A DNA stretch of 64,000 nt from Streptomyces pinistramenti (GTDB lineage Bacteria; Actinomycetota; Actinomycetes; Streptomycetales; Streptomycetaceae), in assembly GCF_020564935.1 (NCBI RefSeq), contig NZ_JAJCXB010000001.1:302022-366021 (forward strand), in the 5' to 3' direction. Position 1 is the first letter of the stretch; every line of letters begins with the position of its first letter. Of this stretch, positions 5,931-56,374 are shown piece after piece. The position numbers and the translations under genes were made by a program. The notes beneath the pieces were generated by a model. That model ran no database searches. It was not told the origin of the DNA and saw nothing but the letters and a program-made list of their open reading frames with translations.

Positions 5931-6027
5931 TCCCCGCGCCTGGTGACGGACCCGGCATCAGGCACCCCGACCACAACAGGTGGGCGCACGCCCGGGATGG
6001 GCCGCCCCGTATGCACAAGGAGCAGCC

Positions 6028-6899: not shown

Positions 6900-6938
6900 G
6901 TGAACTGGGACGAGCCGAAGGGACGGGCGCGCGCGTGA
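6900..6938 (+). CDS. Possible 12-codon leader ORF overlapping the 710-aa gene start
   Basis: The GTG at 6900 has the best SD of this region (GGCAGGAGAGGGACC just upstream). Its frame reads MNWDEPKGRARA and stops with a TGA whose first two bases lie inside the GTG start of the next gene (GTGA at 6935-6938). The next protein also begins MNW, from a repeated GTGAACTGGG. It could be a translationally coupled leader peptide or the relic of a duplicated or frameshifted start. Confidence 0.4.
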   Translation: MNWDEPKGRARA

Positions 6939-10067: not shown

Positions 10068-13000
10068 GTGGCCCTCATGCCCTCCCAGGATGTCATCAAC
10101 GTTCTCAACGCCCTGGGCATGAAATGGCCGCAGGCCAACGAGGACATACTCCGCGAGGCGGAGGCCGCCTACCGGAAGACCGCGGGCGATTTCCGGCAGG
10201 CCGAGGACTACTTCCTCGACGTCGCCAAGGGGATCAACGAGAACTTCAGCGGGCAGACCGCCGGCGCCTTCGTGGAGCTGGTGAACTACCTGTGTTCCGG
10301 GGACCAGCCGATTCTGGACGGCGCGGCGAAGCAGTGTGAACACCTTGCCGAGAACGCCGGGAACACGGCCACCGACGTGGAGCACACGAAGTGGTCGATC
10401 ATCGGCCAGGCCGTCGCCATGATCGCGATGCAGGCGGCCATGGCCTTCTTCAGTTTCTTCTTCGGTCCAGGCGTGATGCTCGGCATGAGTTTCGAATTCG
10501 CGTTGATCCGCGAATTCATCATGAGCCTGATCGCGTCGCTGCTGAAATCCATCGCGATGCAGGCCGTCATCGGCGCGGGCGTGGGCTTCGCGGTGGACGC
10601 CGCCATCCAGGGAATCCAGATCGGGCAGGGGCACCGCGACGGCATCGACACGAAGCTGCTGTCCCAGGCCGTGGTGGCAGGCGCCATCGGCGGCGCGATT
10701 GCCGCCCCGTTCGACCTGATCGGCGTCGGCATCGGCAAGTGGCTCGGCAACGCCATCGGCACCGGCGTGAAGGGCGCACTCGGCAAGGAATTCGCGAACC
10801 TCTTCGCGGGCAACAGCGCCAAGGGGCTCGGGAAGGACGCGGCCGGCGCCGGCGTCAAGGGCGCGGCCACCGGCCTGGAGAAGGGGGCGACGGGGCCGCT
10901 GTCCTCGCTCTCGCACGCCGAACAGCAGGCGTTCGGAAAGGACTTCGGCAGCCTCGTCAGCAACACCCAGGCGCAGCTGTCCAAGGGCTTCGGCAAGGGG
11001 ATCGAGGGCGGCAAGGGCACCATCGCGCACGCCTTCGCCGAGAAGACCGGCGACCTGTTCAAGAAGCACCTGGGCGGCAAGGCGCTGTCCGAGTCCGAGG
11101 CCAAGCAGCTCGGCGGCGACTGGGGCCGCGCCGTCGTCAAGGACTGGGCGGCGGACGCCGAGCGCAGCACCGTCAAGGAGTCCCTGCAGAACGTACTCAA
11201 GCCGTACGAGAAGCAACTCGGCGCGGACGGCACGAAGTTGTTCGCGCACGACGTCCCGGACGCCATGCACGCCGCGCTCCGCGACAACCTCGAAGGCAAC
11301 CTCCGCTACCGCATGGCGGGAACGGCCGCCGGCACGCTGACGGACGGCGCCAACAACGCCCTGTCGGACGCCACCGTCAACTACCTCTACACGGGCAAGT
11401 TCGAGACGACGGGCGGCGCGTTCGCCGGCGGCATGGTCATGGGCGCGGCCGGCCGCGGCCTCGGCGAATACGCCATGCCGCCGGTGACCCAGCACGTGAT
11501 CCACCCGTCGATGGCGGCCGTGGGCAGCGGCCTGAAGAGCTTCAAGGACCAGGTGTTCGGCCCGTCGGCGGCGAACGACTCCGCGTCGATGCTGACCGAG
11601 CACTCCGCCACCCCGCCGTCGATCGCCACCACGAGCACCACGGATCAGACCTCGCTCTCCGGTACGGCCCACGACGGCGGATCCGACGGCTCGGGCACGC
11701 TGCACGACGGCGCTTCCGGGACGAGCACCCCGCATGACGGTGCTTCCGGCGGCGCGGCCCGGCACACCGTCTCCGTCACCGACTCCGACGGCCCTGCGGC
11801 GGCATCCGGCCACGCGTCGACCGCGGCGACGTCCCACGACGACACGGTGCAGCCGCCTGCCCCGCAGCGCACCTCCACCGAGAGCACGGATACGTCCGCA
11901 GGGAGTACGGAGACCGCCGACGGAGGCCCCGGCGAGCCGGGTTCGGCCGGGCAGCAGCAGAGCACCGAGCAGGCAAGCGGCGACGGCCCCGCCCCGTACG
12001 CCACCGGCTCCAGCACCCCGGTGCACCAGGAAGCGCCGCCGCAGACCTCCGCCGCCACGGGCACCCCGGCACCCACGGGCGGCCGCTTGGGCAGCCCCGT
12101 CAACCAGCCGCCCACCGGCGGCAGCACACACGAGACGCCGCAGAACCGGGCCCAGGGCTCCCGGACGGCGGCGCAGGAAAGCCCCCTCCCGCCGGCCAGG
12201 CCGCGCCAGGTCGTCACCAGCAGCACCCAGAAGTCGCCCGCCCCGGACGCCACGCGCCATGATGCGCCCCCCACCACCGGCACCGGATCAGCACCGGGCA
12301 CCTCGCACGAGGCCACCCCGCCGCCCGCACCCCACGTGACGGAGAGCGCAGCCACCACGTCGGCATCGGATTCCGCCCACCCGTCCCCGTCCACCGAGCC
12401 GCCCCGCCCCACCACCCCCACGGCCGGGGACCTGCACACCACCGACACGTCCTCCTCCGCCGAGCCCCCGCACGCGTCCACGCCGACGCCCGAGGGGCAC
12501 ACCGCCCCGCCGAAGACCCCGTCCGAGCTGGTCGACCGGATGATCCGGGTCCGCGAGGCCCGGCACACCGCGGACGGCGAGAGCCTCGGGCCGCAGGGGA
12601 CCGACGGAGCGGGCGCCGCCCATCCGTCGCCGGACGAGGGCGAAGCGCCGCTGCGGCCGCTGACCGAGCGGGAGCGGCAGGAGTGGATCGAGGAACAGGT
12701 GCTGGCCGCCCGACGGCCGCTGCCGCAGCCCGAGTCCGAGCCCACGTTCGACGAGGCGGCGGTCCGTGCGCAGAGCGCGGAGTTCCTGGCGGCGCTGCAC
12801 GTGGATCTGACGGGCGCGTTCGCCATGCCGCAGGGCGCGCAGCAGCACGCCTCCGCCGCGCCCCACTGGTCGCAGGCCGAGGACCGCCGGGTCCGCGCCG
12901 ACCGGTGGCGCGACGAGCAGGCCAGGATGGCGGGTTGGCGGGACGCCGAACTGTCCCAGGCGCAGCGGGACGCGGCCCGGGAGAAGTTCTTCGACGAGGT

Positions 13001-16000: not shown

Positions 16001-19000
16001 CGGCTTCCAGCTCGTGCCCGAGGGCCGGAAGCTGAGGGGCCCCAGCGGCGAGACGTACCGGCTCGGTGCTCCCGCGTCCGGCAGCAGCGGTTTCGCCAAG
16101 GCGCTGAGCGAAGCGCTGACGGGGGTGCTGCCCCAGCAGTACGGCTCGCCGGAAGGCGTCCGGCGGGTGCGCTCGCTGGCCGAGCTGATCGCCGAAGAGG
16201 CGACCACCGCCACGCTCGACGAGGTCAAGCTGCCCCAGCGGGCGGTCGGCGACGAGGAACTGGCCGCGGCCGGCATCGTCCTGGACGCGAAGGCCCGCAG
16301 CAGCTTCGACGCCGCGGGCCGTCTTCCCGACGCACTCGACGCCCCGCGGCGCCGGGCGTGGATCCGCCACCTGCTGCGCTCGGACGCGGCATGGGACGAG
16401 GCGCTGACGAAGGCCGCGGCCAAGGCGGCGGCCGAGAAGCTGCATCTCCAGGTGACCCTCGTCAAGGAGGACGGCAGCCACGAGAGCGTGGGCGGGGCCT
16501 GGGACACCGAGGCCACGATCCGGCACGTCGGCGATGACTTCCAGGGCGCCTCGCTCGACCCCTGGCGGCGTATCCAGCGCATGATCCAGCGCCTTGAGGG
16601 CGAACGCGCCCGGCTGTACGAGGAGCAGGGCCGGCCCGCGCCGGAGCCGCTGGGCGGCACGTGGTACCCGAGCCTTCCGGCGGCCGGGACCGCTGCCACG
16701 GCGAAGGCCGGATCCGGCACGGATGTCACGCCCGTCACGACCGACCGGCCGCGGGCGCTGACCGCCGACGAGCTGAAGATCTGGCTCGACCACGTCTCCT
16801 CGCCGCGCGAGTTCGCCGAACACGCCCTGTCGCAGGAGCTGTTGGGCCGGCCCGTGGAATCCGAGGAGGAGTGGCGGGCGGCGCGGACCGAGCACCACAA
16901 GAAGCTGCTGCGCGAGTTGCAGCGCGACGTGGTGTTCGCCACCCGCGACGAGAAAGGCAAGCTGCCCGCATCGGTGGCCGACGACAAGCTGACACTTGAG
17001 CGGCAACACCTCGACGCCGACCGGCCGGTCCTCTTCGGCCACCCGTCCACCGACTTCGCCGCCGTCCACACGAAGGGCGCCAAGGACACCTTCGAGGACG
17101 AGAGCAGCCTGGAGCGGCATGCCTCGGCGGTCGGCGGCACCAAGATCACGCTGCGGGAGGCGGAGACGGTCGCGCGGCAGCTCGCCAACAGCGTGACGGA
17201 CATCGCTCCAGAGGACCGCGAGCGCCTGCGGAACGCCCTCGTCAAGCTGATGAAGCACCGCCCGCACGCGCTGCTGGCGCACCCGGACGAGGCGTCGGGC
17301 AACAAGCCCACCTCGCTGGGCCACGGCACGTTCCTGAGCTACACGACCTCCGTGGGCGAGACCAGGCTGCTCGCCGTCAGCGCCCTCAACCACGGTGCGT
17401 ACAGCCGCTATGCGGACCCGGAGAAGGTCAAGGTCAAGGGCGGGCAGCGGAGCAGCGAGAAGAGCGCCACGTCGTACTCCCAGTCCGCCAGCCACCAGAT
17501 CGGCGTGAACTCCGGGTTCGCGCCCGGCACCGGTACGTCCGGCATGTTCAGCGCCTCCGTCACCGGCGGCCTGAACCAGGCGTCGCACAGCACCGTGCAC
17601 TCCTCCACCTCGACGGACACCCGTGGCGTCGGCTCGGAGGGCGACTCGCACACCTACGTCAACGACGTGCTCTACGAGGCCAGGACGTATGCGCTGGACG
17701 ACCAGGGCAGGCGGGTGCGCACCGCGTCCGGGGCGGTGCGGATCCCCGTCGGCAGCGGCTTCGAGTGGCGGGTGCCGGACGCCATGACGGCGAAGAAGCC
17801 CAAGGCACCCACCGGGCTGCCGGACAGCTTCGTCATGCCGGAGGGCACCTACCCCGACCTGGTGTCGCCCGACCACCTCGTCATCTCGCAGGACTTCCTG
17901 GACTGGGCCCTGCAAGTCGCCGTCCAGCACGGCCAGATGAAGCCGGACATGCCGGCGATGCAGGCCATCCTCAGCGGTTTCGCCACCCACGCCATGCACG
18001 AGAAGCTGATCCCGACCATCCGGGGCGACGTGCAGGCACTGGAAGCCGTCGGGGAGAGCGGCAAGGTCATCGGCGTGTTCCGCTACAGCGTCGAGATCGA
18101 CCGCAGCAAGCCCGCGGAGCTGGTCGGGACGATCCTGCACGGTGAGAGCGACAACAAGGTCCAGAAGAACACCGCGGTCGGCAACGACCGCAGCCGGGCG
18201 GTCGCCAGCAACCTCTCGGTGACCGTCACCGCGGGACCTGCGGAGAACTCCGTCGTCCGCGCCCAGGCGGGTTTCACGGGCCAGGTGGGCACCGGCCGCA
18301 CCGACACGCTGACGGTCTCCGACAAGGGGCAGGTGCAGTACGGCCTGTCGGACAAGTCGGCGCAGGGGCTCTACAAGCAGGCCCTGAAGATCAACGTCGA
18401 GTTCGTGCCCGGCTACAAAGCCTCCGGATTCGGGCCGCCCGACGAACTGATCGCGCACCAGGACACCCTCGTCCAGAGCTTCCCCGCCTCCGCGCTCCTG
18501 CGCACTCCCAGGGACTCCGCGCGGGCCTGGGCGGGCTGGGACGACAACCGGCAGATCAACCAGCGCGACGCGTCGGCACTGTCGGGCTCACGCGGCCAGG
18601 ACAGCCCGAACGGGCCGAAGGTGCCGGAGTTCACCGAGCCGCCGCGGCCCGCGGAACTGGTGCGCGACGCCCAGCTGTTGCTGAACTCGATGCACTACAC
18701 GCGCATCAGCGCCGCGGTGGTCGCCTCCCAGGCACCGCCCCGCAAGCCCAGGCCCCATCTGCGGCGTCGTGCCGTGTCGTCGCTGATCAAGGCGACCGGT
18801 CTCGGCAAGGCGTCCCAGGCCCGTAATGGGCGGCACGACCGGATGATGAAGAGGTCGAGGACCGCCCCGGCACTGACCACCCACACGCCCTCGCCGCCCG
18901 CCACCACTGCGTCCCTGCGGGAGGCCGACGGCACCTCCCGGACCTCGACCCCGCCGAACACGCCCGTCACACCTGTCACGCCCGCCACCCCCAGCGCGCC

Positions 19001-22000
19001 GCTCGTGGAGACCACGGACTCGCACGTCCGCTCCACCGGCGACACGCCGCAGAACCCGGCCGCCCAGCCGTCGGCGCCGGAGGAGACGCGCCCGCTGGCC
19101 CACCAACTCCTCAATCGGACCGAGCAGGCACTGGCGAACCACGAGAAATCCAAGGTGCGGCAGCTGGTCTCCACCAGGGCGACCACCGTGCGCAGCATGC
19201 AGCACCACCTGCCGTACGCCGCCAAGAAGGCCCTGTACCGGGTGCAGAAGAAGGCCGGCTTCACGGCGGAGCCCCCGGCGTACCCGACCCCCAAGGCCGG
19301 GCAGCGCAGGGGCTGGCGGAACACGAACAAGTTCCGGGCACTGCACGGGGCGACGGCGCTGGAGACGCAGGGCCCCAAGCTCCTGCGCGGGACGTTCGAC
19401 AGCATCGGTGACCTGACCGCCGAGGCATCGGGCTCGACGGTGGTGCTCCGGCGCTCCGGATGGCTGCGCCGTCACACCGCCGCCCTGACCATGTCCATGG
19501 AACTCTCCGGCCTCACCTACGCGGGCCTGTGGCCCGACGCCACCACCGCGGGCAGCCTGTCCGGCGCCCGCACCGTCTCCACCGGCACCGAGGCGCAGCT
19601 CAACTGGCAGGCGGGAGCCGGCGTCGACGTGGGGTTCAAGCCCGTCGCCACCTCCAACCTCGCGCTGGGCGGCGCCACCGTCACGTACGGCGAGAACTAT
19701 GCCCGCAAGTCCGAGGCCGGCGTGGAGACCGGCACCGAATACGCCCTGGCGCCGGGCAGGGGCGTCCACGCCTACGTGGCCGAAGGCGTGTTGTCGCTGG
19801 AGGGAAAGCACCACGCCGAGCCGCGCTACCTGCTGAGGCTCGCCGCCGGGGAGATGTTCAACATCGACCCCAGCAAGATCGAACTGAGCGGGAACCCGGA
19901 CGGCAACCTGATGGCCAAGGTCAAGGTCCACATCTTCCACCCCACCGCGCTGATGCCCGCGAACCTCCGGCTGCCGCGCCGCAACCCCACGCCTCCCGAG
20001 GCACTCCGGAACGAGGCGAAGGACACCGGCAGCACCGCGCTGTGGACACCGCAGCAAGGCGTCACGAAGCTGACGCCGCAGGAGGCCGAGGCCCTTGCCG
20101 CGGGCCCGCGGGTCCGCCACGACTGGGACGACGCCTTCCACTCCCACGTCCGCATCGGGCACGGGCCTTACGTCGCCGCCGTGGCGAAGGACGTGCTCGG
20201 GCAGCTCTCGGAGCACCTGAAGCAGAAGCTCGCCATCCGGGGCACCCAGGCACACACCGATCTGATGGCCCTCACGGAGCAGTTGGAGGCGCAGTTCGAC
20301 GCCGCAGTGCACGGCGGGCGCACCCTGGACCTGCTGCACTACCGCGACCGTGCGTTCCGCTTCGAGGCACAGCTGCGTCTCGAAGCACGGCCCCGGGGCC
20401 CGAAGGTCCGCGACATCGTCGACAGCAACCTCGAAGCCAAGCACGCCGTCTCCAGCGCCCTCAGCGTCGGCACCGGGACCTCGCTGACCCGCACCGTCAA
20501 CGCACAGGCGCAGCTGACGTTCGGCACCGCCTTCAACGCCGGAGTGCCGGGCAAGGTCCAGGAGTCCCAGGGCTGGGGCGTCGTGTGGACCCTGTTCAAC
20601 CGCGGCACCACGCACACCACATCCCACTCGCTCTCCATCGGCACGACCTTCACCGAAACCCGGTCCGGCCGGATGGCGAGGGTGGACTTCGACGAGACCA
20701 CCTGGACCGTGACCGGCGGGGTGAAGTCGCTGCGCTGGTTCGCCCCGGAACGCACCGGGTTCGGCGGCGCCACGGTGCCCGGTGACAAGACGACGGTCTA
20801 CTCCCTGGACGACGCCCGCAGACTGGGCTGGGTGACCAACGGCCTGGACGAACTGCCCCAGAACACCCGGTGGTTGCCGCCGAAGGAACTGCCCTCGTTC
20901 GTCTCCGTACGGGGCGCGCTCGACGCCGGACCCGCACTGCGGGCCTTCGCCGGGCAACTGGGCTCCCAAGCGGGCAAGGTGCTGTCCGACAGCAGCATGG
21001 GCCCTGCGGGAGCGCTGCGCGTCGAACTCGACACGCTGCTGACACCGGACTCCCTCAACGGCGGCCTGCACTACCAACTCCTGCGCGAGGGCGTCCCGCT
21101 CAGCTCCGGCGTGTGGCTGCGACTGGTGCCCGGCCCCCTCACCCAGCGGCACACCCAGCACAACGTCTCGGTCGACGAGGACCGTTCGGTCTCCTTCACG
21201 CGGTCCCGTGCGGTCGCCGTGGCCGAGACCCACAGCCTCGGTGTGACCAGCACACAGACCGCGCTCACCCAGCCGAACACCACGGAGGGCAAGCCGCCGG
21301 GCAATGTCGTGGGCGTCGGCGTGCCGCTGACCGCGACCGGTACCGCCACCACCACCCGTACCCTCACCGTCACCGAAGCGGTCAGCACCACCCGCACGCT
21401 GTCGATCGGCGGCGGGTTCGTCGACTTCAGCGCCGACTACCAGATCGAGCTGACCCACACCGACGAGGACGGCCACGTCACCCGGGCGCGCGAGAACGCC
21501 GGCTCGCTGATCCAGATGCATCCGGAGCTGCTGCTGACGCCGGTCCGTGAGGAGGCCGCCGCCACCACGTCGGATGTGTCCGCCACCAAGGGGCCGACGT
21601 CCACGACCGAGGCGACGACATCCCACGAGGTGACGACGTCCGGGCCGCCCGTGACCGGGCCCGACCCCGTATCCGATCCCGTCCCCGCTCCCGCCCCGCA
21701 GATCATCGAACCCGTATCCCCGGGCACCTGGCAGGCCAGGAACAGCGCGCTGACGGGTGTACTGGCCCACCAGGACGTGGTGTTCCTCGACGCCCGGGGC
21801 GCGAACCACCTGCTGGCGAACGCCACCGCGGCACTGGACGCCGCCGCAGGCCGGGCCACCACCCTGTCCCGGTCCCCCAAGGGGAAGGACGCCGAGTCGT
21901 CCGTCTCCACCGAGCGCACCGCCGTCGGCGGCGGCAGCCTGACCCGGCCCCGCACCACAGCGGCCCGCCAACTCGCCCAGCAGAACAGCTCGCAGGTACT

Positions 22001-25000
22001 GCGCGCGATGCTGCCGCAGGCGTTCGGCACGCACGGCTGGCAGCAGCCCACGCTGGAGGACGGCTCGGCGTTCGGGGCCGCCCGCGGCAACATCACCGTC
22101 CACGCGCGGGCGAAGACCGCCCGGCCCAAGATCCTCGCCGTCTTCGACGAGGTCACCCTCACCAGCGACGAGCGGATCACCGACACCACCCAGCACGCCG
22201 AGGGACTCACCGCCAGCTCCAGCCTCACCGGTGGCGCCTACCCCACCCACACCGTGCAGCCCACCACCGGCAACATGACCAGCCGCGGCACGGCGCCGGT
22301 CACCCAGGGCGGCGACGTCGCCACCACTCAGAGCGCCGTCAGCAATTCGGTCAACTCGGCGGTGTCGCCCAAGGCGGAGCGCCGCCTCCTGGTCGAGGTG
22401 CCGCTGGACTTCCTCGTCGGCGCCACCGTCACCAAGCACGGCCTGAAGTCGGCGTCCGACACCATCGGCAAGGCACTCGACACCGCCAAGGCAACCCTCA
22501 GGCGCAGCGGCACACCAGCCACTGACGCCGCCACCGCCGAACTGCTCAGCCACGTCGTCGAGTCCACCAAGGGCTCGGCCAGCGCCGCCTTCTCCTCGGA
22601 CAAGGTGGTGGCGCTGGTGCCCGAGCGGGTCCTGCGCGAGGCGGGCCTGCTCGACGACGACAACTTCCCCGAGTCCGTGGGGAAGGCGTACGACCAGGTC
22701 AAGGACCTGCGGGAGAAGGTCAAGGACACACAAGAGCTGTACCTGGGCGCCGAAAAGCGCGTCGAGCGGTGTTACGAAGAGCTGTACGAGGTCATCCGCG
22801 AGGCCGGCCAGGCGCGCCGGACGCAGCAGCAGACGTCCACCGGGAGCGCGTCCCACGAGAACGCGCCCACCGCGGCGCGCTCGGCCGAAGAGCTGGACAA
22901 GAGTTTCCGGTCCGCCGGAAGCCGCCTGGTCGAGTACACGATCGAGTGGTCCGGCCTGCGCGCCGAGATCGAGCGCCTCAAGAAGGAAGTGGACAAGGCC
23001 CTCCGCAGCGCGGACGAACAGCGGGACTGGCACCTGGACAACGCGGGCCGCCCCGAAGCCCAGGGCAAGCCCGAGCCGTACACCTGGGACAAGGAGGAAG
23101 ACACCACCCGCAGGCCGCTGGCGACCCCGGCCACCGATGACGACGCGCAGAGCCCGGCTCCTCTCCCCGCCCCGTACGAGGACCCGTCGGTACGCGAGCT
23201 GGTGTCGCAGGCCGAGTCCTACGGCGGCATCTGGACGGGCGGCGCCGTCCCGCCAGCCCACGCCGAACTGCGCGAGAAGATCATGGTCTGGGCGCTGGGC
23301 GAAGAGCTGCGCGAGAAGGCCGACCAGGACCTCGATGTGCTGCGCCGCGCCGAGATCGCCTACCTCCGGCAGGCCCGCGCCCGCGTCCAGGAGGCCGCGC
23401 AGCGCATCCACGACGCCATCGCCGCGAAGCTGGCCGCAGCCGACGCGGCCACCGGCCGGGGAGACACGGACGCCGAGCTGCTGGCCGAGGCGGCCGAACG
23501 GCTCCGCAAGGGCGTTCCGGTGGAGACCACCGACGACCTGGCCGGCCGGATCGCGGAGCAGCAGGCCAGGTTCAACGCGGCACGGCAGGCATTCGAGGGG
23601 CAGCCCGAGGGCTCCGAAGCCCGGACCAAGGCCGGGCAGGAGGCCGCCGAGCAGCTGGCGGCCCTCGAAGAACTTCACCGCGCCGCCCAACTCCAGGTAT
23701 CCGCAGCAGAGTTCGCGCAGAACCTCAAGCCCTCGACGTTCCCCGAGCCGCCCCTGGTCAAGGACCGCGGCGATGACGAGCGCCTGGCCGCCGAAGAACT
23801 GGCCGTCCTCGACAAGCCCGTGCAGTTCACGGCGGGCGAGACCGGGGGCAAGGACGACAGTCCCACCACCTACACGCACGACGACGGCACCGTCTACGAC
23901 GTCCTGGACCCGCACGACACCGCGAACCCGGACAGCACCCAGGGCGAGGGCCTGCCGCTCGCCCTGAACGCCGCGCTGACCAAGCTCGCCGACAAGGGCG
24001 TGGCGCTGCCCGTGGCGCCGCACCGCGGCACACCCGCCGAGATCGCGCAGCGCGTCCGGCAGGCGATGGCCGACCGCCTGCGCCAGGACGGCGAGGACCC
24101 CGACTCCTGGCTCAACGTAGCCAACGACACCGGCAACACCTGGCTCCAGCCGGAGCCCGGCCGGGACCGCTTCACCCAGGCGGACCTCGACGAGGCCGGC
24201 ATCACGCTCGACCCCAAGCACCAGCTTGAGTTCGACCAGGACGGCACGCTGCACACCAACATCCGACTGCCGCACGCGGCGCGCCTCAAGCTCGTCGCCC
24301 TCCAGATGGAACGCCCGGCCAACTCCCCGCTGCGCCACGGCACCATGGAGGACCGCGAAAACGCCGACCTCTTCCTGGGGCCGCTGTCCTACGCCCGCGC
24401 GTACGGCGTCGAGGTCCACGTCGTACGCCCCGGCGCCGGCGTCGAGATCTTCCACCCGGCCGGGCCCGACGGGGTCCGTGACCTGTCTCTCCCCCAGGTG
24501 ACCGTGGTCCTGGAGGAGGACACGGTCAAGGCCCTTGTCCCGCGTGGCGGCGGATCGCCCACCCCGACAACGGACGCGCCGCCCGCGACGGACCAGCAGC
24601 CCCACCCCGCACCCTCCTCGCCTTCCTCCCCGCCCGTGACGGCACCGGTCGGCACCCCGCCGCAGCAGTCCGTCGCGGTGGGCCCGCCGCACCCCGCCGG
24701 GCCCCCGCCCTTGGGAACCGAACTGCCGGTCCCCATGGACGGCTGGTGCCAGATCTCGTCACTCATCGTGAACGCGCCCCAACACGTCCGACAGCAGCTC
24801 GACTTGACGCATCACCACGAGGCGGATGCACTGCTGAGCGACCCGGCAGCGGTGCGCCGCGCCGCGCGGGCGCTGGCCCGCGGCAACCGGACCGCGGCCG
24901 CCGCCGTCTTCTCCCAGGCCGTACGCCTCGCCCACCAGCACGTCCTGGACTTCCTCACCGAGGACGTCACGACCATGCCCGAGCGGTTCGCGTCCCGGCA

Positions 25001-43000: not shown

Positions 43001-46000
43001 AGAGAATCTGCCGTCGGCCGATGAGGAGTACGACACGTTCCTTTGCATGGTCGCGGGGGCCGATGGCCGGACGCTTCATGGGAGCGTACGCAGTCGTCTG
43101 CGCTCCGATGTGGACGATTTCGTCATGTACCGGCAGAATCCCCACGCGTGGCAGCCGGTGCGCGCCCCCGGGACGAGGGCCGCCGCGCCACGCCCCACTG
43201 CCCCAAGGGCCGTTCCCGGAAGGGAGCCGGCCGGCACGGTGGAGGAATTGCTCGCTCATCTCTCCGTGCGCTACGGCGCCTCGCACCCGCTCGTCGAGGT
43301 GTCGGGTGAGTGGCTCGACGCGCAACAGGCCGTGGGGACCAGGAAGGACCGGAGGCGGGCGCTGGCGGATTGGGAGAAGTACCTGCACGACCGGGACAGG
43401 GATCCGCTGGCGCAGACGGTCAGGCCGTCGGATGACCTGGACCTCCACCGCCACCTGGAGGAGCAGAACATCGGGCCGGCGGGACGCATGAAGCGCCTCG
43501 TCTACCTCGACCAGATCTTCGGGCGTCTCCGGAGCCGGATGCAGGAACGGAACAACCCGGCCACGGCCGACGCGTTGCTTGCCCACCTCTCCGCACGCTA
43601 CGGCGCATCGCACCCGTTCGTCGGGGTATCGCGTGAGTGGCTCGGCGGGGAACAGGGTGCGCAACGGAGCGAGGAGCAGGAAAAGCGGTCCCGTGAGGAC
43701 CGGGTTCGGGCGCTGCGGGGTTGGGAGCAGTACGTGTACGGCCGGGGCAGGGATCCGCTGGCGGAGACGGTGCGGCCGTCGGATGACCAGGAGTTCGCCG
43801 GCCACCTGGCGGAGCAGGGCATCAGCCTGGCGGTACGCATGAAGCACGTCGGCCGCCTCAACCACCTCTTCGACCGGCTCCGGAGCCGGACCGAAGGCCA
43901 TCCCCTCACCGGGACAACACCCAGGGTTCCGGGCGGCACGGTGGATGACCTGCTTGCCCATCTCTCCGTGCGCTACGGCGACTCGCACCCGTTCGTCGAG
44001 GCGACGCGTGAGTGGCTCGACGGGCAACGGAGGGCGCAAAGCGGCGGGCAGCAGGGCGAGTTGACCCGTGCGAACCGGAGGCGGGTGCTGGCGGTCTGGG
44101 GGCAGTACCTGCACGACCGGGGCAGGGATCCGCTGACGGAGGTGGAGCGGCCGTCGAGGGACCAGGACTTCCGCCGCCACCTGAAGGAGCAGAACATCGG
44201 GTCGACGGGGGGCACGCAGCCCTTGCCCCTCCTCGATCAGATCTTCGGGCGGCTCGCTGACAGGCCGCTGGAACAGGTCAATCCGGCTACGGTCGGGGGT
44301 AATTCGTTCACCGCTCCTCTTACGGTCACGAAGCTGCTGTCCGACATGGCAGGCGTGCACGGTGCGACGCACCCCTTCGTCCGGCTGGTGGACGAGTGGC
44401 TCAACCAGCGTCGCCTCGCCCGGAAGAGCCTGCGGACCTATGCGGGTGACATCCGTCCGTGGTGGGAGCAGGCACGGGAAGGGCGCCTGCAATTCCCTGC
44501 CACGCCTCACGAGCAGATGGGCACATTCCTGCGGGACCTGGCGGTATGGGACGTGGCAACGGCGCGTCTGGTCCGGAACGAATCCGGGCCGTCCGCACGG
44601 AAATTGACGAATCATCACCAAATGGCTGCGCGGGCCCTCCACAAGCATGCGGAACGCTGCGGATACCTCGAAGATCTCGCACCGGGCGTCTATCCGGGCC
44701 TGACCATGGACGACGTGTTGGGGCAGCTTGCGGAGCGGGGAGGTGAGGAGCTGGGCAACACGGCGCGGGAGTGGCTCGCGTCGTACGTGCAGCGTGGCGC
44801 GCCGCCGCAGGAGGACCTGGCGAAGGCGCTGCTTCAGTGGAGTGAGTATTTGTGGGGGCGGAGCCGGCATCCGCTGACCGAGAGGAACCTGCCGTCGGCC
44901 GATGAGGAGTACGACACGTTCCTCGGCGGGGTCCAGGGGGCCGACGGCAGGACGCTCCAGGCGGATGAGCGCAGGCGCCTGCGCTCCGACGCGGACGATT
45001 TCCTCATGCACCGGCTAAGCCCCCAGGAGTGGCAGTCGGCGCGCGACACCGGGGCGACAGCCCGGGTTCCGGTCATCGTGGACGAATTGCTCGCCCATCT
45101 CTCCGCGCGCTACGGCGACTCGCACCCACTCGTCGAGGCGTCGGGCGAGTGGCTCGGCGGGCAGCTGCGAGCGCAGACCGCGGTGAACCGGGGTCTGGCG
45201 CTGGCGGGTTGGGAGCGCTACCTGCACGACCGGGGCAGGGATCCGCTGGCGGAGACGGTGCTGCCGTCGAAGGACCAGGCTCTCCGCCGCCACCTGGAGG
45301 AACGGAACGTCGAGGCGGCGGAACGCACGGAGCGCCTCGGCCAACTCGACCAGATCTTCTGGCGACTCCGGAGCCGGGCGCCGGGACGGAACGACCCGGC
45401 GACCACCCAAGGCAGTACTCAGGGGCCGTCGGCGCCTGTGCCGGAGACCCCGGCGGTGGTGGCCGCCCGGCAGATCGAGGATGCGGCCGACAGCTATCTG
45501 CGCAGGGCCGAGAGCGCGGCCGAAGCCTCGTCGGCGCAGGTGGAGGAGGGCTGGAACCATCTCGTCCGGCTCGACGACGCGGTGCGGGCCGGCACGGTCG
45601 GCCCGGACCTGCGCGCTCGTCTCCTGAACGCCCTGGCAGGGCTGGAACGGACCGACACCATGGCGCCGCGGATGGCGTCCACGCTGCCCCTCGGCATCGA
45701 CATCCCGCGTGTGGGGGACAGCTGGGCCGACGCGCTGGAGGCGACCGTCGCGTCGTTGGAGGAGGCCGCGGGGCGCGACGGGCTGAGCGCGGAGCAGATC
45801 AGGCTGGGGCGGCGCCGCCGGCGCGACCTGTGGCATGCCGAGGTCCGCCGTCGGCTGCCGGAACAGCTGCCGGTGGAGATGACCCGGCGGCTGAACCAGG
45901 CGCTCAGCAGGCCCGCGCCCGGCGCCGTGGAGGCCACGGACGCGCCGCTGCCCGTCGCGCGCCGGACCGGGGCGTCGGGGCAGCTCCCGCAGTCGACGAA

Positions 46001-49000
46001 CCCGGCCGCGGGGGTGCGTCGCCGACCGGTGCGGAGAAGCTTCGACGAGGCGGGGCCTGCGGCCGTTGAGCAGGTCCGTGACTGGCTGGCCACGCGGGAG
46101 AACCCGAATAGCCGTCAGGTCTACGCCGTGGGTCTGCGCGTGTGGTGGGATTTCGTGGGGCGCGAAGGACACGAGGGAGAGGCGTTGTTGTCGCCCTCCG
46201 CGGCCACGGTCGCAGCCTTCGTGGACAAGGCCCGCATGGGGCAGCGGGAAGCTCGCCTCTCCGCCGTACGCGGCTTCTACGACTTCCTGACGACCCGGCG
46301 CATCATCGCCGCCAATCCCTTCAGGACCGAACCGGAGGTGACCGGGCACGGCCTGGAGGAACCGGGTGCGTGGGGCGATCCGGACGGTGACGTGCCGATG
46401 GAGCCGGTGTCCGGGGAGCCGGGGGCCGGTCTGCGGGGGGATGCCGTCGGCTCCGGGCAGGAGGGCGGGCTCGGCGACGACCCGTGGGGCAGCCTCTTCG
46501 ACGACCTGGAGGAACCGGGTGCGTGGGGCGGGTTGGACGAAGACGTGCCGATGGACCTGGTAGAGGCCGCGTACGAGCAGGGGCAGGGCGGCGCGGGCGG
46601 TACGGGGGCCGGCGCGGTGCCCGACGCCTACGCGGCGCTGTGGCAGTGGATGCCGGGGGAGTTGCTTCCTCCGGTGGCGAGCGGGGCCGATGCGGGCGAG
46701 ACCGTGACCCGGTGGCTGGGCAGCGCGGCGGCGCGCGCCGAAGCGCGGTCCGTGCTCGACGGGGAGAACCCGCTGGGCCCGGCGCTGCTGGACCTCGTGG
46801 AGCACACTCTGTCGGCCCTGCCTACGCACGAGCAGCCGGCTTTCCTGTGGTCCGATCAGGACACGGTCGCGAACCACATATTCGGCTCCCAACTGATCGG
46901 CTCCCACGTCTACCTCGGGCACCTGCTGGCGATGTCCCCGACCTCCGTGCTCCCGCGCGACGGGCAGAACATCGAACTGCACATCGCCGGGGTGCACGGA
47001 CGCCGGATTCCCCGGGAATGGCACGAATTCCACGACGAGTTCCCCGAAGGGGCGGTGCTGCTGCCGCAGGCCCCCGTCCTGCGGGTCGTGCACGTGGAGG
47101 GCACCGTCGACGGACACACGCGCCTGTACCTGCAGCCCGACGAGGCGACGGAGGAACAGCCCACCACCCAGGGCTTCCTGGACGACGCGGGCTTCGGCCC
47201 CTACGGCGGGCCTGGCGACGTCTACCTGCCGTCGGCACCCGGCGACGGGGCCGGTCCCTCGCAGCTCCCGCCCGGGGAGCCCGGGTTCTTCGCGCCGGGC
47301 CAGGACTCCGGCGTGTGGTACAGCGCGGCGGCACCGGGGGAGCAGCCGGACCGGACCCCGGCGGCGGCTTCAGGGCCGTACACGGACACCTCCGCCCGGA
47401 TCCCGGAGGAGTCCGTGCAGGCACCGGACACCTCCGCCCGGACCCCGGACTTCCCGCTCGACGCCGATCTCGACCCCCGGCCGACCCCGGCCGAACGGGC
47501 CTCGGGCGATCTCCGCAGGTCGCGGCAGGCCCTGCGGCTGCTGCGCACGCACTACGCGACGTGGGAGCAGTCGCGGCAGCCGGAGGACGGCAGGACCCAG
47601 CACCCGCTGTTGGCCGCCGGGCCCGAGGAGTCCTACCACCTCCGCAAGCGCGGGCTCGACGCCTTCCTGGAGCAACACCTGCCGCTCATCGAGGCGTTGG
47701 GGGAGGCGGACCGGACGGTCGCCGTCCGCCGCTTCATGACCGGGACCGTCGGGCCCTGGACGCACGGAGAGAGTGCGCCCGACGCCCCGGCCGTCGGCCC
47801 GACAGGTGCCGTGCCGGGCCCGCCCGACGGTGTACACCCCGTGAGCGCCGAGCTCAGCGACCTGTGCCGCACCAGTGCCAGGCCCGACGAGATGCGGGAG
47901 CGGGTGGCGCGCGCCTGGCCGGAGATCGGCGACGCCTACCGGCAGACCGTCGCCGCCGACGAGACGGCCGGCGCCCGCGTCTCGGAAACCGTCCGGCAGT
48001 ACCTGCGGCTGGCCTGGACCGGTGGTGACGACAGCGGCCGGATCCTGCCCGTGGACTCCCTCGTCAAGTCGCTCCTCCTCGACGGCCTGCCGCTGCGCGA
48101 CGGCAACGGGGCCGTCCAACTGCCCGCCGCCGAGCTGTTCCGCCGCTACGGCGAACTCTTCCACGGGCCGCGCCAGGTGCTCATCGCCACTGCGGCATCC
48201 GAGTCGCGCGGCGTCTTCCACGCGTATTTCACCGGCCGGATCCCCGCGGAGTGGCTCATCGACCACATCGCCCAGATCGCGGTCAGGCTGGACGACCGGG
48301 GCGAAGGCGTCCCTGGCGAGCTGTCGGACTCCATGGTGGACGCAGTGCGCGGGCTCTTCGGCGAACTGCACCAGCACTACCAGGCCGGGGCCTCGCTCCC
48401 GTACGCGGCATGGGAGCGGTCCCCCGGGACGCCGGTGCCTTCGGCGGTACCGGCGTTCGCCTACCAGGAGTACGCGAACGGCAGCCGCAGACTGCAGCGT
48501 ACCGACGGCGCCCCCTCCCTGTTCCGCTATGACGGCGTCCACCAGGAACTCTTCGCGCGGATCAACGAGCTGTTCGCGACGCCGGAGCGCATCCGCCAGG
48601 CGCACGCGCACCTCACGCAGCAGCGGCACGACGCGTCGGCCTGGCGCGCCCGCTGGCTGCTCGCCGACGACCCGATGCGCCGTATCCAGGACGGCTACCG
48701 GCCCGTGGAGCTGGACCACCGCTACCTCACAAGGCTCCGGGCCGACCGGCCGGCCCCCTACGACACGGCCGCCTTCCGCCACTTCCTTCACGGCCTGGCA
48801 GGCGGAGAACCCGGTCAGCAGCCCTTCCACGCCGTCGAACTGGCCACCGTGTACTCCCTCGTCGTCGGCGACGCGCTCCCCGGATTCGCGCAGGCCCTCG
48901 GCAACCGGACGCTGCCCGCCATGGTCACCGCCGCCGTCGCCGCGGCCGGGCTGCGCAGGCTGCCCGCCCACCACGGTGCCGTCCGGCAGCGCTTCGCCTC

Positions 49001-52000
49001 GCCGCAGGTGCCGTACATGACGGGCCGCGAACTGGACCTGAGCTTCGTGGTCGCCGATCCGCAGGCCGCCGGCAACACGGAGATCGTCTACACCGGCTTC
49101 CGGGCGACCGGCACCCACCCCCTCTTCCCCGGCAACCCCGGGGCGCCAGTGGTCATTTCCCCGGGCGAGCGCGGCATCGTCACCTCCGTAGAGCGGGCAC
49201 CCGACCTCGACGGTCCCGTCGGCCCCGGTCACCGGCTCCAAATGGTGTCGCTCGGGGCCGAGATCGAGCGGATCCAGGTGAAGCGGCCGTCCGAGAAGTT
49301 CAGGGAGGGACTGGGCCATCTCGCGCCCGTGCCCTTCCAGCGGTTCGAGGTCAGGCGCTACCACCTCGGCGACGGGACGAAGCTGAGCCGGCTGATCGCG
49401 CGGGTTCACGTGGTCGCCGATCCCGCACTCTCGCCGGCCGAGGTGGCGGCCAAGAAGCAGCAAGTCCTCCCGTACGTGGACGCGTTCCACAACGTCGGGC
49501 ACCGCTTCCCCGACGGCGATCTGGTGCAGTTCGTCGTGGAGTTCACCGACGACAGCTCCCGCGCCCACCACACGGTGTCGCTGTTGCCGGGCAGCGGCCG
49601 GGCGAACAGTGCCGAGTGGTTCCTGGACACTCTCCCGCTGATCGTGCTGCACGAGTTCAGTCACCTCTTCGGCGGCCGGGACTGGTACCAGGAAGGATGG
49701 CCGCGCCCGCTGGACGAGGACGGCTCGATCATGGCCGGGCAGTACCTCGACCCGTGGGGCCGCACCTGGCTGAACAGTGACTTGCCGTCGTCCTCCGGCG
49801 CACCGGTGCCGAACCTGCGGTGGCTGCCGCACGACCTGCAGATGCTCTGGTCATCCGTGCAGCAGGCGCGCCTCGCGCAGGCGAAGGAAGCGCACGGCGA
49901 CGGCGCACCCCAGGACCGTGCGGCCGGGCGTCGGCCGGACCCCGAGGCCGAGCGCGTCTCCGTCCCGCTGGAGGTCCGCCGACGGGTGCTGTGGGGCGAC
50001 CCCGGCACCGCCCGTCCGGGGCGGATGGCGCCGCGGAACCACGCGATCCACCGCGAGTACCCGCAGCGTGTGGGGGAGATGAATCCCAACGGCACCTATC
50101 TGGCGCGGTTTCCTTCGCAGCCCACGGCGGGCAGCGACGGCGTCGTCCACCACCCCGCGGGCGGGGACCTCGCCGGCCCGCCGACGGCCGAGGACGCCCC
50201 GGTGATGATGTTCCCCCACCACATGACCGAGGACGAGGTGGTGAAGGCCACCGAGCAGGCGTACCTCAACTGGCGTGCCAACGGCGGAATCTGGCCCGAC
50301 GGGGCGGGCCGGATCGCCTTCGACGGGGTCTATCAGGGCCTGCGGGTTCGGGGTGTCGCCGACGCCTCCGGCAAGATCCTCGACTTCGCCCCGCACGAAC
50401 AGCAGACCGACCCCAACGACACCGGACCGGCACCGCGCGCACTCCAAGTCCCCCTGTTCCGCACCCTGCTGCCGGAGCCCACCACGGGCGGCGCGCCACT
50501 GATCACCCGCTTCACGGAACGCTTCGTGCTCGACGGCGACCGCGCCAAGGGCGTGGGCGGCTATCACGGCTTTGCCCCCACAGAGCAGATGAAGCGCGGC
50601 ATTTGGTACGAAGCGGTGGGCGGGGAGCCTCTGGAGAACGGCGTCCGGGCAGGGGAGGTGAGGCTGCTGGGCATACGCATCTCCCCGCGACCGGGTGAGC
50701 TCGGGTGGTGGCATACGGTCGCCGACGGCAGCAACGGCGGACACCTGCTCTTCCCGCAAGCATGGACGGCCGATGCCCTGTGGGGCGCGGTCCGCGACGC
50801 CCACACTCGCGCCCTGGACAGCGGGCGGTTCAGCTGGCACACCGAGGGCGACCACGCCCTGGGCGCGGGCTACCTGTGGACCGGCGAGAGCAACGGCGTC
50901 CGTATCCAGGGCTACACGCTCCAGGGACGCCACATCTGGGTCCGCCCCTCCGCGTACCAGCCGAGGGTGACCTGGTCCACCTGGGACGACGACGAGCACC
51001 TCGCGCAGTCCCAGGAGCAAGCGGTCCGGCTGCCGACCGGCGACACCACCGAGGCTCCCTTCCGGGTGTCGCACATCGTGCTCGACGACGACGATCTGGG
51101 CGTGCAACTGGCCGTCGAACTGTCGGTCCCGCACGGCATGGACGCCGGCCAGCAGCGTGAGTTGGCGGACTATCTGGACGAGGTCCAGGAGGAGATCGAC
51201 ACGACGTACAACAAGGTGCCCCGGGGCGACGGGCTGCCCTTGGTCCGCTTCGATGTCGTGCCCGTCGGGCCGGCGCCGGGAGTCCGGTCACCGCAGCCGG
51301 CCGAACTTCTCGCGCTGTGTGCCCGGGTCGGACCGGCTGCGCTGGCACAGCAGCTGCTGGGCATTCCGCCCGATGCCCAGCAGATAGGCGCGCTGCTCGC
51401 TGCCGCCTGCCGACAGGTGCCGATGCCGTCCCCGCACGCGGCCGACGCCTGGCTCCCGCTCGACGCGGAGCAGCACATCGTGGCGGCGCAACGCCACAGG
51501 ACACCGGCAGGGATTGCCGCCGACCCGGGGGCGAGGGTGCTGCTGGAGACGTACCGGGCCGAGGAGCTGGCACCGTTCGCCACCCGCCGGAGCACCGTCG
51601 AAGAACTGCTCGCCCAGCTCCGGCCGGCATTCGCCCCCGGGGCCTGGTACAAGGAGACGGGGGACGAGCTGCCCGCCGGGCTCACCGATGACGAACTGCG
51701 GCTGCTCGCCTTCCGCGCGGCGCAGCAGGGCAGGTCGGACACACCGGGGCGCGACGTGTTCACCGGAACCGTCCCGGGCCACGACGACCTGGCACTCCAG
51801 GTCAGGACCGACGCCGAAGGCACGATCCGTGACTACCGGCTGGTGCCGTCCGATGCGGCCGAGCAGTTCTGGCCGGAGGACGAACGGATGGCGGCATCGC
51901 CGCTCCTGCCGGATGACAGCAGGGAGGATGACCTCGCCGCGTATGGCGTGCGGGATCCGGAGTCGGACAGCGACGACGACCTCGCCGCGTACGGGGTGCG

Positions 52001-55000
52001 GGATCCGGAGTCCGATGGGGACGAGCCCGTCATGGCCCTGGACGACGCTTCGGACATCTTCTCCGTACTGAGTGGCCGCTCCGCCCCGCCGCGGCCGAGC
52101 GCGCCGACGCCGGGGGAGCGGAGCCCCTACGAGCCCGAAGGCCCGCGTCAGGACATGGACACGGACACGGATATGGATATGGACACGGATGCGGAAGGGG
52201 ATTCCGGCACGGATTCCGACAGCGACACGGTCTCGGACATGCCGGGGGTAGAGGAGCAGGCGCCGCCCTTCCGGCAGGTGGCCGTCGCCCCCGCGCCCCC
52301 GGACGGGCCGGTTCCGCCCCCGATCGGCGGCCACCAGCCGTCCGGCGCGGGCGCCGACTCCTCTCCGGAAGCCGCCACTTCGGGCACCGGTGAGGCGACA
52401 CTCCCGCCGATGGCGCTCGGCACCATCCGCGTCGACGTGCAGGGACCGGCAGGACAGGGCGGCTTCGGATACCAGCCGTCCGGACTGTTCCAGGGGCTTG
52501 AGGTCAGCCGGGTGCGCCACGAGGGCGGGCCCTGGACGACCCGGGTGGTCCTGCGTACGGCGGCGGGGCAGCCGGACCTGCCCGGTGCCGTGCACACCAC
52601 CACCGCCTACCGTCTGCCGGACGGGGAGCCGTTGGAATTCGTCCTGGTCACGCCGGGCTCCGACGCGCAGCTTCCGGCCCCCGGGCCCGTCCCGCTGCTG
52701 TCCGGATCCGGTGAAGTGGTCCTGGAACCGCGGGAGTTGCGCTCCCTCGGGCAGGCCATCGACGACGCCTGGCGGGCCGCCGTCGATGCCGGGCAGGTCC
52801 GGCGGCAGGGCCGCGCGACCGATGACACCCCATCGGGCGCCGCCCGCACCGGCACGCCGGATGCCGATGGCCCCGCGCGGGTGCGGGTGCCCCTGGAGGT
52901 GCGGCGGCGGGTGCTGTACGGCGGCGCCGGTTCTCCGGGGCTGCTCGAACCGGCCGGGACGGGGGCCCGCCCCTCCTCGTACCGGGTCGGGCAGCCGCAC
53001 CCCAACGGCACCTACCTCACCCGCACGGCACACACGACCGAGCCGGTGCTGATGCTGCCGCCCAACTGGTCGTCGGAGCAGGTGACCTACGCCGTCGAGC
53101 AGGCGTATCTGGCCTGGCGGCGGGACGGCGGCAGCTGGCAGGACCCGTCGGCGCCGCGCCGCTTCGACGGGGTCTACCAGGGCCTGCGGCTGTGGGGCGA
53201 GGCCGACGCCGAGGGGAACGTCGTCGACTTCGGGCTGCACCCCGTCCAGGCCGATCTCCGGGCGCCTTCCTTCCTCGCCCCCCGTCCCGGTACGCAGGGT
53301 CCGCGCGTCACCGAGCGGCTGGAACGGCTGGTCCTGGACGGCGACCGGGCCCGCAATCTCGCCGGCCACTTCCTCCACGACGCGGACAGTCAGCGCGAGC
53401 GGGGCATGTGGTATCGGCCGCGCAAGAAGCTGGTCCGTGAGGACGGCGTGGTGCGGGAGGTCGACTGGAAGGAGGCGAACGGCGTCGTCACCGCACGGGT
53501 GAGTCTCCTGCCGGACCGGAACACCGCAGCGAACGGCCCGGAGGCGGCCGGTAGGGAGGCGGCCGGTGCGGAGGACTGGCAGGCGCCGGCCGGCGGCAAA
53601 TGGACGGTGCTTTTCCCGTCGCAATGGACGATCGACGGCCTGTGGGACGCGGTGGCGCAGGGCCACGAACGGGCGTTGGACGCAGGCGACATCACCCTGT
53701 ACGACGCCGGCTACCTGTGGTCAGGCACCGGCAACGGCGTCCGCATCGAGGGCTTCGTGCGCGACGGCGAACACGTCTGGATGCGGCCGTCGGCGCGGCA
53801 GCCGCTGCCCCGGTGGAGCGAGGACGCACTGGTCGCCACGAGCGGGCCGGTCCCGGTACGGGTGCCGGTGGGCGGCGGCTCGGTCGGCCTCGCCGTACGG
53901 CACGCGCTGTTCACCGGCGGCGATCACGGCGTACACCTGACCGCCACGGTGCCCCGCCCCGCCCGGGGGAGCGGTGTCGACGACGCGGACTACGAAGGCG
54001 CGTTGCGGCGCCTCCAGGGGCATGTCGACGCGGCCTACAACCAGGTGCAAGGGACGGCCGTCCCGGTGAAGTTCACGGTGACAGCAGCGGATCCGGCCCA
54101 CGCCCCGGGGGCCGCCGCCGACCCGGTTGCCGCCCTCCTCCTCGGCAGCGACGCCGACCTCGCGGAGGCGGCGTACCGGCTGCTCGGCGTGGAGCCGGCC
54201 GCTTCGGACGTGGACGCACTCGCGGCGCGCGTACGGCAGTTGGCCCCGATGCCCGTGGAGTCGGCCGGATGGCAGCCGCACTCCTCGGCGGAGCGGACGT
54301 GGACGGCGCAGGAGACGTCGTCGGCGCTGACCCAGCTCCAGACGGCCGATGTCGGCCGGCTGCCCTCCGACCCCGAGGTCCGCACCTGGTCCGACGACCC
54401 CGACGTGGCACCGCACGGATCGGGGGCCGCCGAGCTGGCGGCGCAACTCCGCGACCGGTTCGCCCGGAAGGCGTGGGACGCGTGGTACGCACCGGAGGTG
54501 CTGCCGGACGGCTGGACCGCCGATCGGCTGCGGGTCGCGGCGTACCTGACGGCCCGACGTGCCCGGCAGGCGCAGGAGTTGGCGGAGTACACCCGTGTCC
54601 TGGTCGCCGACGCGGGCGCGGAGCTGCCGTTCCGGCTCCGGGTGACCTTCGACGCCGGTACCGGCACGGTCCTCGACTTCGTGCTCCCGGACCTGCCGCC
54701 GCCCGGCAGCGTGCGGGACCTGCCCCCGGACGACGCACCGGCCGGTGGCAGCGGCGACGCACCCGCCGGAACGCCCCACGGCGTGCCCGGCAGGGATGGC
54801 CACCCGGTACCGCCCCCTTCCCCAACAGCGGCCGGGAACAAGGGTGCCGGGACTCAGGACCTGGATATGATCTCCCAGGGGACGGACCTTCTCGCCGCCC
54901 CGGCCCTCGGTGTCATGTCGCCCGTCGGCAGGCAGCCTCTCGCCACCCGGGCGGGCCCGTGGACACCGACCCGGACGGGCAGCCCGATCCGGAGGCCCGG

Positions 55001-55322: not shown

Positions 55323-56374
55323 CCGTGCCCGTCATCTCCGCGGACACCGATCCCGCCGCGGAACCCGCGCCCGCACCGCGAGCGGCATCCGCGCGGGCCA
55401 CCGCCGCGTCAGGGCAGAGCGCCGCAGGTGCCCAGGGAGCGGCGGCAACGGCCGCAGCGGGGAAGAAGGACGCCCGGTCCGCCGCAGCCGCGGGCTCGTC
55501 GGGTCCTGGCGAGGACGCCACGGACCAGGCGGCGGGGCCCGCAGGGCGGGTGTCCAAGCCGATGGTGGCGGCCGCCGCCCTGGCCGGTGTGCTGCTGCTG
55601 TGCTCGCCGTTCCTCATCAAGGGCCTGGTGGGGCACGGTTCGGACGACGCCAAGCAGCCGCCGGCCGCCGGCTCCGACTACGACGGGCAGGGCCGCGGCG
55701 CGGGCATCGTGCCCGGCGCCGACCAGCCGCAGGGCAACCAGGGCCCGCCCGGCGGCGACGGCAGCAGCTCGGGCGGATCGAGCAACGGCAGCTCGGGCGA
55801 CGGCGGTTCGGCGGGCGCCCCCGCCGACGGCGGCCACTCCTCGCCCCCGCCCAAGGACGACAAGACCTATGCCGCCGTGGCCGGCCCCGACTGCACCAAC
55901 AGCTCCACCGGCTACAAGGAGCACGGGACGTACAGCGACGGCGACAAGGGCTGGACGACCCACGACGGCGGCTACGGCAAGGAGGGCTGCGGCGGCAAGT
56001 TCACCTCCGTCCCGATGGCGGGCGAGCAGGGCGACGACGGCAACTACGCCCTGTGGACCTTCGCCACAGGCCCGGTGACATCCGGAAGCTGCCAGGTCCG
56101 GGTGTACATCCCCAAGGACAGCGCGGTGGCGCACGTCGGGGGGCACCCCACCCGCTACTCCGTGTACGCCGCGGCCGGCGCGACGGGCAAGCCGCTCGGC
56201 GACTTCACCGTCAACCAGGTGGACAAGCGCGGCAACTGGGTGTCCGGCGGCACCTTCTCCCTCACCGGAGGCCACCTGGCCGTCATGCTGCACACCCTTG
56301 GCGTCGACTACGGCTCCGGCTTCGCCAACGCGCACCACGCCGCGGCGGCGGTCGGGGTGAAGTGCACCGGCTGA
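55142..56374 (+). CDS. Single-pass membrane protein with golvesin-like extracellular domain
   Basis: A 410-aa protein. Residues 1 to about 138 are Ala/Pro/Glu-rich and cytosolic. One transmembrane helix follows at about 140-160 (MVAAAALAGVLLLCSPFLIK). A Gly/Ser/Pro linker leads to an outer domain (about 240-410) with DKGWTTHDGGYGKEGCGG, ALWTFATGPVTSG, VYIPKDSAVAHVGGHPT, VNQVDKRGNWVSGGTFSL and final VGVKCTG. This pattern resembles golvesin/Xly C-terminal carbohydrate-binding-like domains. Four Cys in the outer domain could form two disulfides. The ATG at 55142 lies inside the end of the giant ORF in another frame (181-nt overlap), with GAGGAG 3 nt upstream; an ATG at 55151 is an alternative. 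It may anchor or receive the giant protein at the cell surface. Confidence 0.82.
   Translation: MAPMEPEESRKGGGARRDTADAPSTAAETAAVEAAEAEPPAPAGPRPQATEGRPYATGGVTVPVISADTDPAAEPAPAPRAASARATAASGQSAAGAQGAAATAAAGKKDARSAAAAGSSGPGEDATDQAAGPAGRVSKPMVAAAALAGVLLLCSPFLIKGLVGHGSDDAKQPPAAGSDYDGQGRGAGIVPGADQPQGNQGPPGGDGSSSGGSSNGSSGDGGSAGAPADGGHSSPPPKDDKTYAAVAGPDCTNSSTGYKEHGTYSDGDKGWTTHDGGYGKEGCGGKFTSVPMAGEQGDDGNYALWTFATGPVTSGSCQVRVYIPKDSAVAHVGGHPTRYSVYAAAGATGKPLGDFTVNQVDKRGNWVSGGTFSLTGGHLAVMLHTLGVDYGSGFANAHHAAAAVGVKCTG

Follow-up and report, generated by a model that had tools for sequence, protein, structure and literature searches.

A 64,000-nt stretch of the Streptomyces pinistramenti genome (here called the window; positions 302022-366021 of contig C1, NZ_JAJCXB010000001.1, the end of the window coinciding with that of the contig) carries one unbroken open frame of 15,084 codons beside genes of an ESX (type VII) secretion system. 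The genome assembly comprises 7.85 Mb in 133 contigs. From the anatomy of the encoded protein (here called the giant), together with the accessible part of Zhang et al. 2012 (PMC3482391), we consider it probable that the giant is an ESX-exported, self-processing chain of several toxins, with export, processing, and toxicity all predicted from the domain layout.

The frame runs from a GTG start at 10068 to 55322 on the plus strand (45,255 nt) with zero internal stops. The GC content of third codon positions (GC3) in this frame is 0.85 to 0.94 per 1,500-nt block and 0.79 in the short last block; hence, nearly the full length codes in that frame. Stop density in the five other frames ranges from 0.0010 to 0.0175 per codon (mean, 0.0113), so that 15,084 stop-free codons correspond to a ln P of -172 at the mean density and of -15 in the most stop-poor frame. 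Since an independent genome, that of Streptomyces catenulae, keeps a syntenic, largely colinear, stop-free frame of 14,051 codons in the same gene order, the giant open reading frame (ORF) is very likely real. The original prediction of a single 45-kb frame is thus confirmed. The true C-terminus is doubtful because the codon signature is progressively lost beyond about 54,750-54,900, because the frame overlaps the next gene (55142-56374) by 180 nt, and because the S. catenulae counterpart ends upstream of that downstream gene; judged by eye, the protein may naturally end near amino acid (aa) 14,950-14,975. We estimate the size of the giant as ~1.6 MDa (~107 Da per residue), with ~21% of the chain disordered-looking on a simple scale, in linkers between modules.

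The N-terminus of the giant bears the export-type domain that had been claimed for it: WXG100_2 (PF25547) matched aa 15-148 well over its cut-off (1.3e-12; 48.3 bits versus 27). The giant has three hydrophobic stretches, all within aa 110-215, and no membrane-like stretch was found outside the head in the whole chain. Profile matches over cut-off for EccD and EccB, upstream of the giant, bear out the eccD/eccB part of the predicted gene neighborhood, to which we can add a divergent EccC gene at 1-2136 on the minus strand. The whole EccC open frame has 1375 aa; the window holds its N-terminal part, and the gene extends past the window start. For the first of the small WXG100-like genes (5418-5930), the true start is probably internal to the listed ORF.

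Toward its C-terminal end, the giant carries a payload of enzyme-like domains. EndoU_bacteria (PF14436) matched with 48.4 and 53.6 bits in two overlapping pieces and with 34.0 bits for aa 13400-13900, all above the cut-off of 25.3. In one structure model, ART-, metzincin-, and EndoU-type neighbors follow each other consecutively along the chain; the HExxHxxGxxD zinc-peptidase motif is invariant in 10/10 rows of the alignment, and the structural neighbors listed for that part are metzincins. A diverged second copy of the EndoU part gave a sub-threshold Pfam EndoU match (0.0016, on aa 14500-14900). Much further upstream, aa 5548-5800 scanned alone matched the lonely-Cys family NF012197 (E, 4.2e-14); its score of 52 bits is below the curated cut-off of 200 and places this domain outside the curated family. 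It was absent from the matches listed in a 5,000-residue scan and in a genome scan, the latter of which did list a second giant of the same genome, on contig C79. Its His 5661 and Cys 5715 are invariant in all six rows, and DUF4347 matched three of the six below threshold. A candidate OTU-like papain-fold domain precedes it and is read from motifs; its DGWCQ motif is kept in 3/3 rows, with no Pfam match at E <= 0.05 and none in further scans of a piece ending at aa 5160. The protease and nuclease-like modules of the original prediction are supported, although some of the assignments rest on a low-confidence model.

Between these enzyme-like parts lie long repeat arrays. A region with twelve repeats of ~114 aa matched PF02899 (6.8e-11; 42.7 bits versus a cut-off of 22.3), and a structure model of the repeat (pLDDT, 93.5) had as its VIA neighbors the core-binding domain of tyrosine recombinases (XerA and Cre). 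When single repeats were scanned, 3 of the 12 copies matched Pfam at E <= 1. The giant differs from tyrosine recombinases in having twelve such copies and no detectable catalytic domain: the XerC match spans only positions 16-99 of the 295-position profile, and no Phage_integrase match at E <= 0.05 was found in four pieces spanning the whole chain. S. catenulae has no colinear match to aa 10,717-12,420. The 18,430-codon giant of genome G023 shares a conserved unit (aa 2253-4878) with the window giant, as do S. catenulae and Streptomyces benahoarensis; part of it, aa 2280-2830, was found in 3/149 other genomes. Blocks of the duplicated, helical-looking region aa 6030-9303 occur in S. catenulae and S. 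benahoarensis, and a piece of it (aa 8200-9320) was found in 0/149. The genome searches scored only part of the first-pass candidates in each genome, so absences are soft. The OmpA-like module proposed earlier (aa 5317-5500) could not be confirmed: none of the four copies of this repeat matched Pfam, and searches of the PDB returned only weak apolipoprotein and adhesin hits, unrelated to OmpA.

Among the functions first suggested, the anatomy is most in keeping with self-processing delivery, given the WXG100-like head, the adjoining ESX genes, the protease-like domains, and the nuclease toxin domains. In such a system, the head would pair with the small WXG100-like partners, and the giant would be drawn through EccC/EccB/EccD of the adjacent ESX system. 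The helical and core-binding repeat arrays may serve as a spacer or binding scaffold, with no recombinase role. The caspase-like, OTU-like, and metzincin-like domains might release toxins or act as toxins themselves, and the ART-like and EndoU domains would be the warheads, with EndoU predicted to cut RNA in a rival bacterium or soil predator. By the standards of any bacterial export system, a chain of this mass would be a very large substrate if exported whole, and the chain-length limit of the ESX machine would be testable in a culturable genus.

A possibility that overlaps this proposal, and to which we give clearly less weight, is that the giant is aimed at eukaryotes such as amoebae, nematodes, or insects rather than at bacteria, for defense against predators or for predation. 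OTU-like toxins and peptidase toxins without immunity genes are read as aimed at eukaryotic hosts in the accessible part of PMC3482391, and profile scans recognized no immunity gene at the locus, which leans weakly toward eukaryotic targets. However, the same part of that source describes EndoU as frequent in polymorphic toxin systems, and the missing match to an immunity family is a weak argument, since the gene downstream of the giant is uncharacterized. The product of that gene (55142-56374), a candidate partner or immunity protein, matched no immunity family in Pfam and NCBIfam profile scans.

We regard it as unlikely that the giant instead stays on the cell after ESX export as part of its surface or matrix, in the manner of an adhesin or scaffold, with enzyme-like domains that are degenerate and serve in binding. 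The very long repeat arrays would suit such a structure, as would the ART-like fold, whose catalytic residues are without assignment, and the second EndoU copy, which lacks the metzincin part; the downstream single-transmembrane (TM) protein, the end of which weakly resembles Golvesin_C, could serve as an anchor or partner. These features have to be set against the conservation of the metzincin motif and of the lonely-Cys His and Cys across all rows, the EndoU matches over cut-off, the restriction of membrane-like stretches to the head, and the failure to confirm OmpA-like anchoring. That the frame is not one protein, being made in pieces or over-annotated from high GC, is very improbable: stop-free frames are common at such GC and an antisense ORF of 3,403 aa lies inside the giant gene, but the coding signature persists in a single frame to near the end, the ln P values are -15 to -172, the S. 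catenulae orthologue is stop-free, and other giants of 5,836 to 18,430 codons exist.

A bolder elaboration of the delivery proposal, which we think has little chance of being right, is that the twelve catalytically empty core-binding domains form a tether that grips DNA or the chromosome, with the proteases of the chain freeing the ART and RNase warheads at the target nucleoid, and that pairs of giants in one genome act as cassette libraries exchanging warheads and tethers. We did not find the core-binding fold used as an array without a catalytic domain in the parts of the literature that were available to search.

The original prediction held that this arrangement matches no described machine. 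That view is no longer tenable, given the giants in the accessible part of PMC3482391 and the presence of the same operon, with a coding sequence (CDS) of 59,022 nt, on a Streptomyces linear plasmid. The gigantic proteins (>10,000 aa) that Zhang et al. (PMC3482391) described in actinobacteria contain ART, caspase-like, OTU, metallopeptidase, and MCF1-SHE domains (e.g., gi 345002682). Like these, the giant exceeds 10,000 residues, is actinobacterial, and combines several predicted toxin and peptidase domains, among them candidate caspase-like and ART-type ones. Where those proteins have an anthrax-lethal-factor-like peptidase, it has a zinc-peptidase motif of apparently metzincin type. It also has EndoU domains and twelve core-binding-like repeats in an array, the latter unmentioned in the accessible part of that paper. 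A survey of huge proteins (PMC11573180) contains, in its accessible part, neither a class of giant ESX multi-toxins nor the word "toxin." The kind of protein is therefore known from Zhang et al. (PMC3482391), whereas the core-binding array, the metzincin-EndoU cassette, and the traffic of modules between giants were not met in the portions of the literature that we could consult.

Two Streptomyces linear plasmids have their genes between eccC and the giant arranged as in the window, one in Streptomyces atratus (NZ_CP109382.1) and one in Streptomyces sp. NBC_01176 (NZ_CP108601.1). Their operons annotate an S8 peptidase, EccC, EccD, EccB, WXG100, AAWKG, and YbaB genes, and a giant CDS, which is named an "EndoU domain-containing protein" (14,361 nt) in one case and a "hypothetical protein" (59,022 nt) in the other. 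The latter (NZ_CP108601.1 313719-372740, OG199_RS01320) encodes about 19,673 aa and belongs to the same kind of ESX operon on a 502-kb linear plasmid typed as mobilizable; this class of giants is thus also plasmid borne. The plasmid operons differ from the window locus in their location on a plasmid, and sequence identity in the module that they share with it is just ~29%. The S8 peptidase gene adjoins eccC in the plasmid operons; the upstream flank here was read by ORF codon signature, with no S8 family search made. S. atratus has a ricin-lectin protein where the window has the 410-aa single-TM gene. A module-related EndoU gene also occurs amid many transposases and plasmid replication genes in NZ_CP109476.1 (20799-62610), with no ESX gene in the stretch shown.

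With polymorphic toxin systems delivered by type VII secretion, the giant shares an export-type head, processing-type proteases, a nuclease domain, and a fast-changing payload; it differs in that numerous toxin-like domains lie inside the chain where such systems have a single C-terminal tip, and no immunity gene was recognized. Its cysteine domain is of the same type as that of the lonely-Cys proteins. Among the 149 other genomes, 20 have NF012197 matches, in frames of 805 to 17,018 codons that are mostly long; matches were over the cut-off in 10 genomes, 7 of which had at least two matches per frame. The phrase "lonely Cys domain" was not found in the literature searched.

Conservation between the giant and its S. 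catenulae counterpart is uneven. Identity of the head is 76% in the genome search and 73% over aa 1-400, and the payload blocks have 36 to 61% identity, plus one short block of 70%. The neighboring genes have identities of 87% (EccD), 78% (EccB), 66% (AAWKG-like), 81% (YbaB), and 65% (downstream gene). The lower identity of the payload than of EccD and EccB indicates that the payload is diverging more quickly than the secretion machinery. Ratios of nonsynonymous to synonymous change (Nei-Gojobori dN/dS) were 0.38 for the head and 0.59 to 0.95 for the other 16 blocks, values that are probably too high because GC3 bias depresses dS. The counterpart in S. benahoarensis is a frame of 11,544 codons ended by the contig end.

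More widely, a search with the head matched 51/149 other genomes, 12 of which have an open frame of at least 5,000 codons (maximum, 18,430). Six head-search frames in five genomes were read, as were the giants of G072, S. catenulae, and S. benahoarensis and the C79 and C48 frames of this genome; the others are known by open-frame length. In the module search, the named records were Streptomyces at 10/10 loci, and the named relatives were Streptomyces or Kitasatospora; Kitasatospora has annotated EndoU proteins of 5,697 and 7,165 residues with the same head family. A 19,630-codon open frame matching the head occurs in Streptomyces griseoviridis (G155:C17:1913-3286). A relative of the 12,263-codon giant of G029 is split in two frames at ~218 kb in G072 (C11:212177-244998; L113 and L114); either this copy is broken or the assembly is wrong there.

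In the S. pinistramenti genome, EccC matched over cut-off five times, and each of the three large ORFs read in it, on C1, C79, and C48, has an EccC gene within ~10 kb. The C48 frame (4,732 codons) has the giant's head. The second giant frame, on C79 (G000:C79:87396-130763), has 14,456 codons; its N-terminus escaped the head search, no family search was made on it, and a WXG-like WSG motif can be seen in it by eye. Both the aa 5317-5800 cassette and the core-binding repeats of the window giant recur in this second giant. In this genome, the ART-metzincin-EndoU module was found only in the window giant, and the C79 giant has repeat copies in its place. A giant with flanks that match C79 also contains the module in both S. 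catenulae and S. benahoarensis. In a tree, the module copies of these two second giants are sisters (100/100), which suggests a duplication between giants before the two species split, followed by loss or replacement here. Modules thus appear to be duplicated between, and replaced within, giants of one genome across species, making such giants a natural experiment on the construction of giant genes.

Table 1. Features of the window and of the giant gene (coordinates in nt of the window)
Feature	Position	Strand	Basis or remark
EccC ATPase, N-terminal part, divergent from operon	1..2136	-	FtsK_SpoIIIE 2.5e-38; TIGR03924 EccCa 858 bits, over cut-off
EccD membrane component	2190..3638	+	PF19053 9.8e-86; TIGR03920 2.5e-63, over cut-off
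EccB membrane component	3694..5163	+	PF05108 3.9e-91; TIGR03919 7.6e-87, over cut-off
WXG100/ESAT-6-like small protein	5418..5930	+	WXG100 and ESAT6_2 sub-threshold; S. catenulae 63% over 113 aa
WXG100-like small protein	5980..6312	+	TIGR03930 0.0025, sub-threshold; S. catenulae 47% over 87 aa
Small protein	6350..6802	+	77% in S. catenulae; position of "type VII secretion system-associated protein" in plasmid operons
AAWKG-like protein	6935..9067	+	NF038047 3.4e-17, 63 bits, below cut-off of 70; position of annotated AAWKG genes in plasmid operons
YbaB/EbfC-family protein	9105..9551	+	PF02575 1.7e-10, over cut-off
Small conserved protein preceding giant	9523..9903	+	59% over 122 aa versus S. 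catenulae
Giant gene, 15,084 codons	10068..55322	+	Open frame, GC3, S. catenulae counterpart
Head, aa 1-400	10068..11267	+	WXG100_2 domain and three hydrophobic stretches
Conserved unit, aa 2253-4878	16824..24701	+	No family match
OTU-like papain-fold candidate, aa 4880-5170	24705..25577	+	DGWC Cys 4894, NHY His 5161; motif reading only
Repeat, aa 5317-5500 (earlier called OmpA-like)	26016..26567	+	Three further copies in second giant
Lonely-Cys/caspase-like domain, aa 5548-5800	26709..27467	+	NF012197; His 5661, Cys 5715
Duplicated helical-looking region, aa 6030-9303	28155..37976	+	Internal repeats; no family match
Region with twelve ~114-aa tyrosine-recombinase core-binding-like (SAM-like) repeats	38499..46316	+	
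ART-like fold, aa 12916-13063	48813..49256	+	Structure-model neighbors
Metzincin-like protease, aa 13084-13268	49317..49871	+	HExxHxxGxxD at aa 13195
EndoU-like domain a, aa 13292-13444	49941..50399	+	
EndoU domain b, aa 13478-13628	50499..50951	+	
Diverged second copy of EndoU part, aa 14223-14880	52734..54707	+	Without metzincin motif
Low-complexity tail of giant	54900..55322	+	Codon signature lost; overlaps next gene
410-aa single-TM protein	55142..56374	+	Weak Golvesin_C-like C-terminus, sub-threshold; S. catenulae 65%

Directly past the locus, at 56627-59314 of the window, lie a ketoacyl synthase gene and a gene for a BTAD-type regulator, both unrelated-looking. The C79 giant is also near ORFs that by eye are polyketide-synthase-like.
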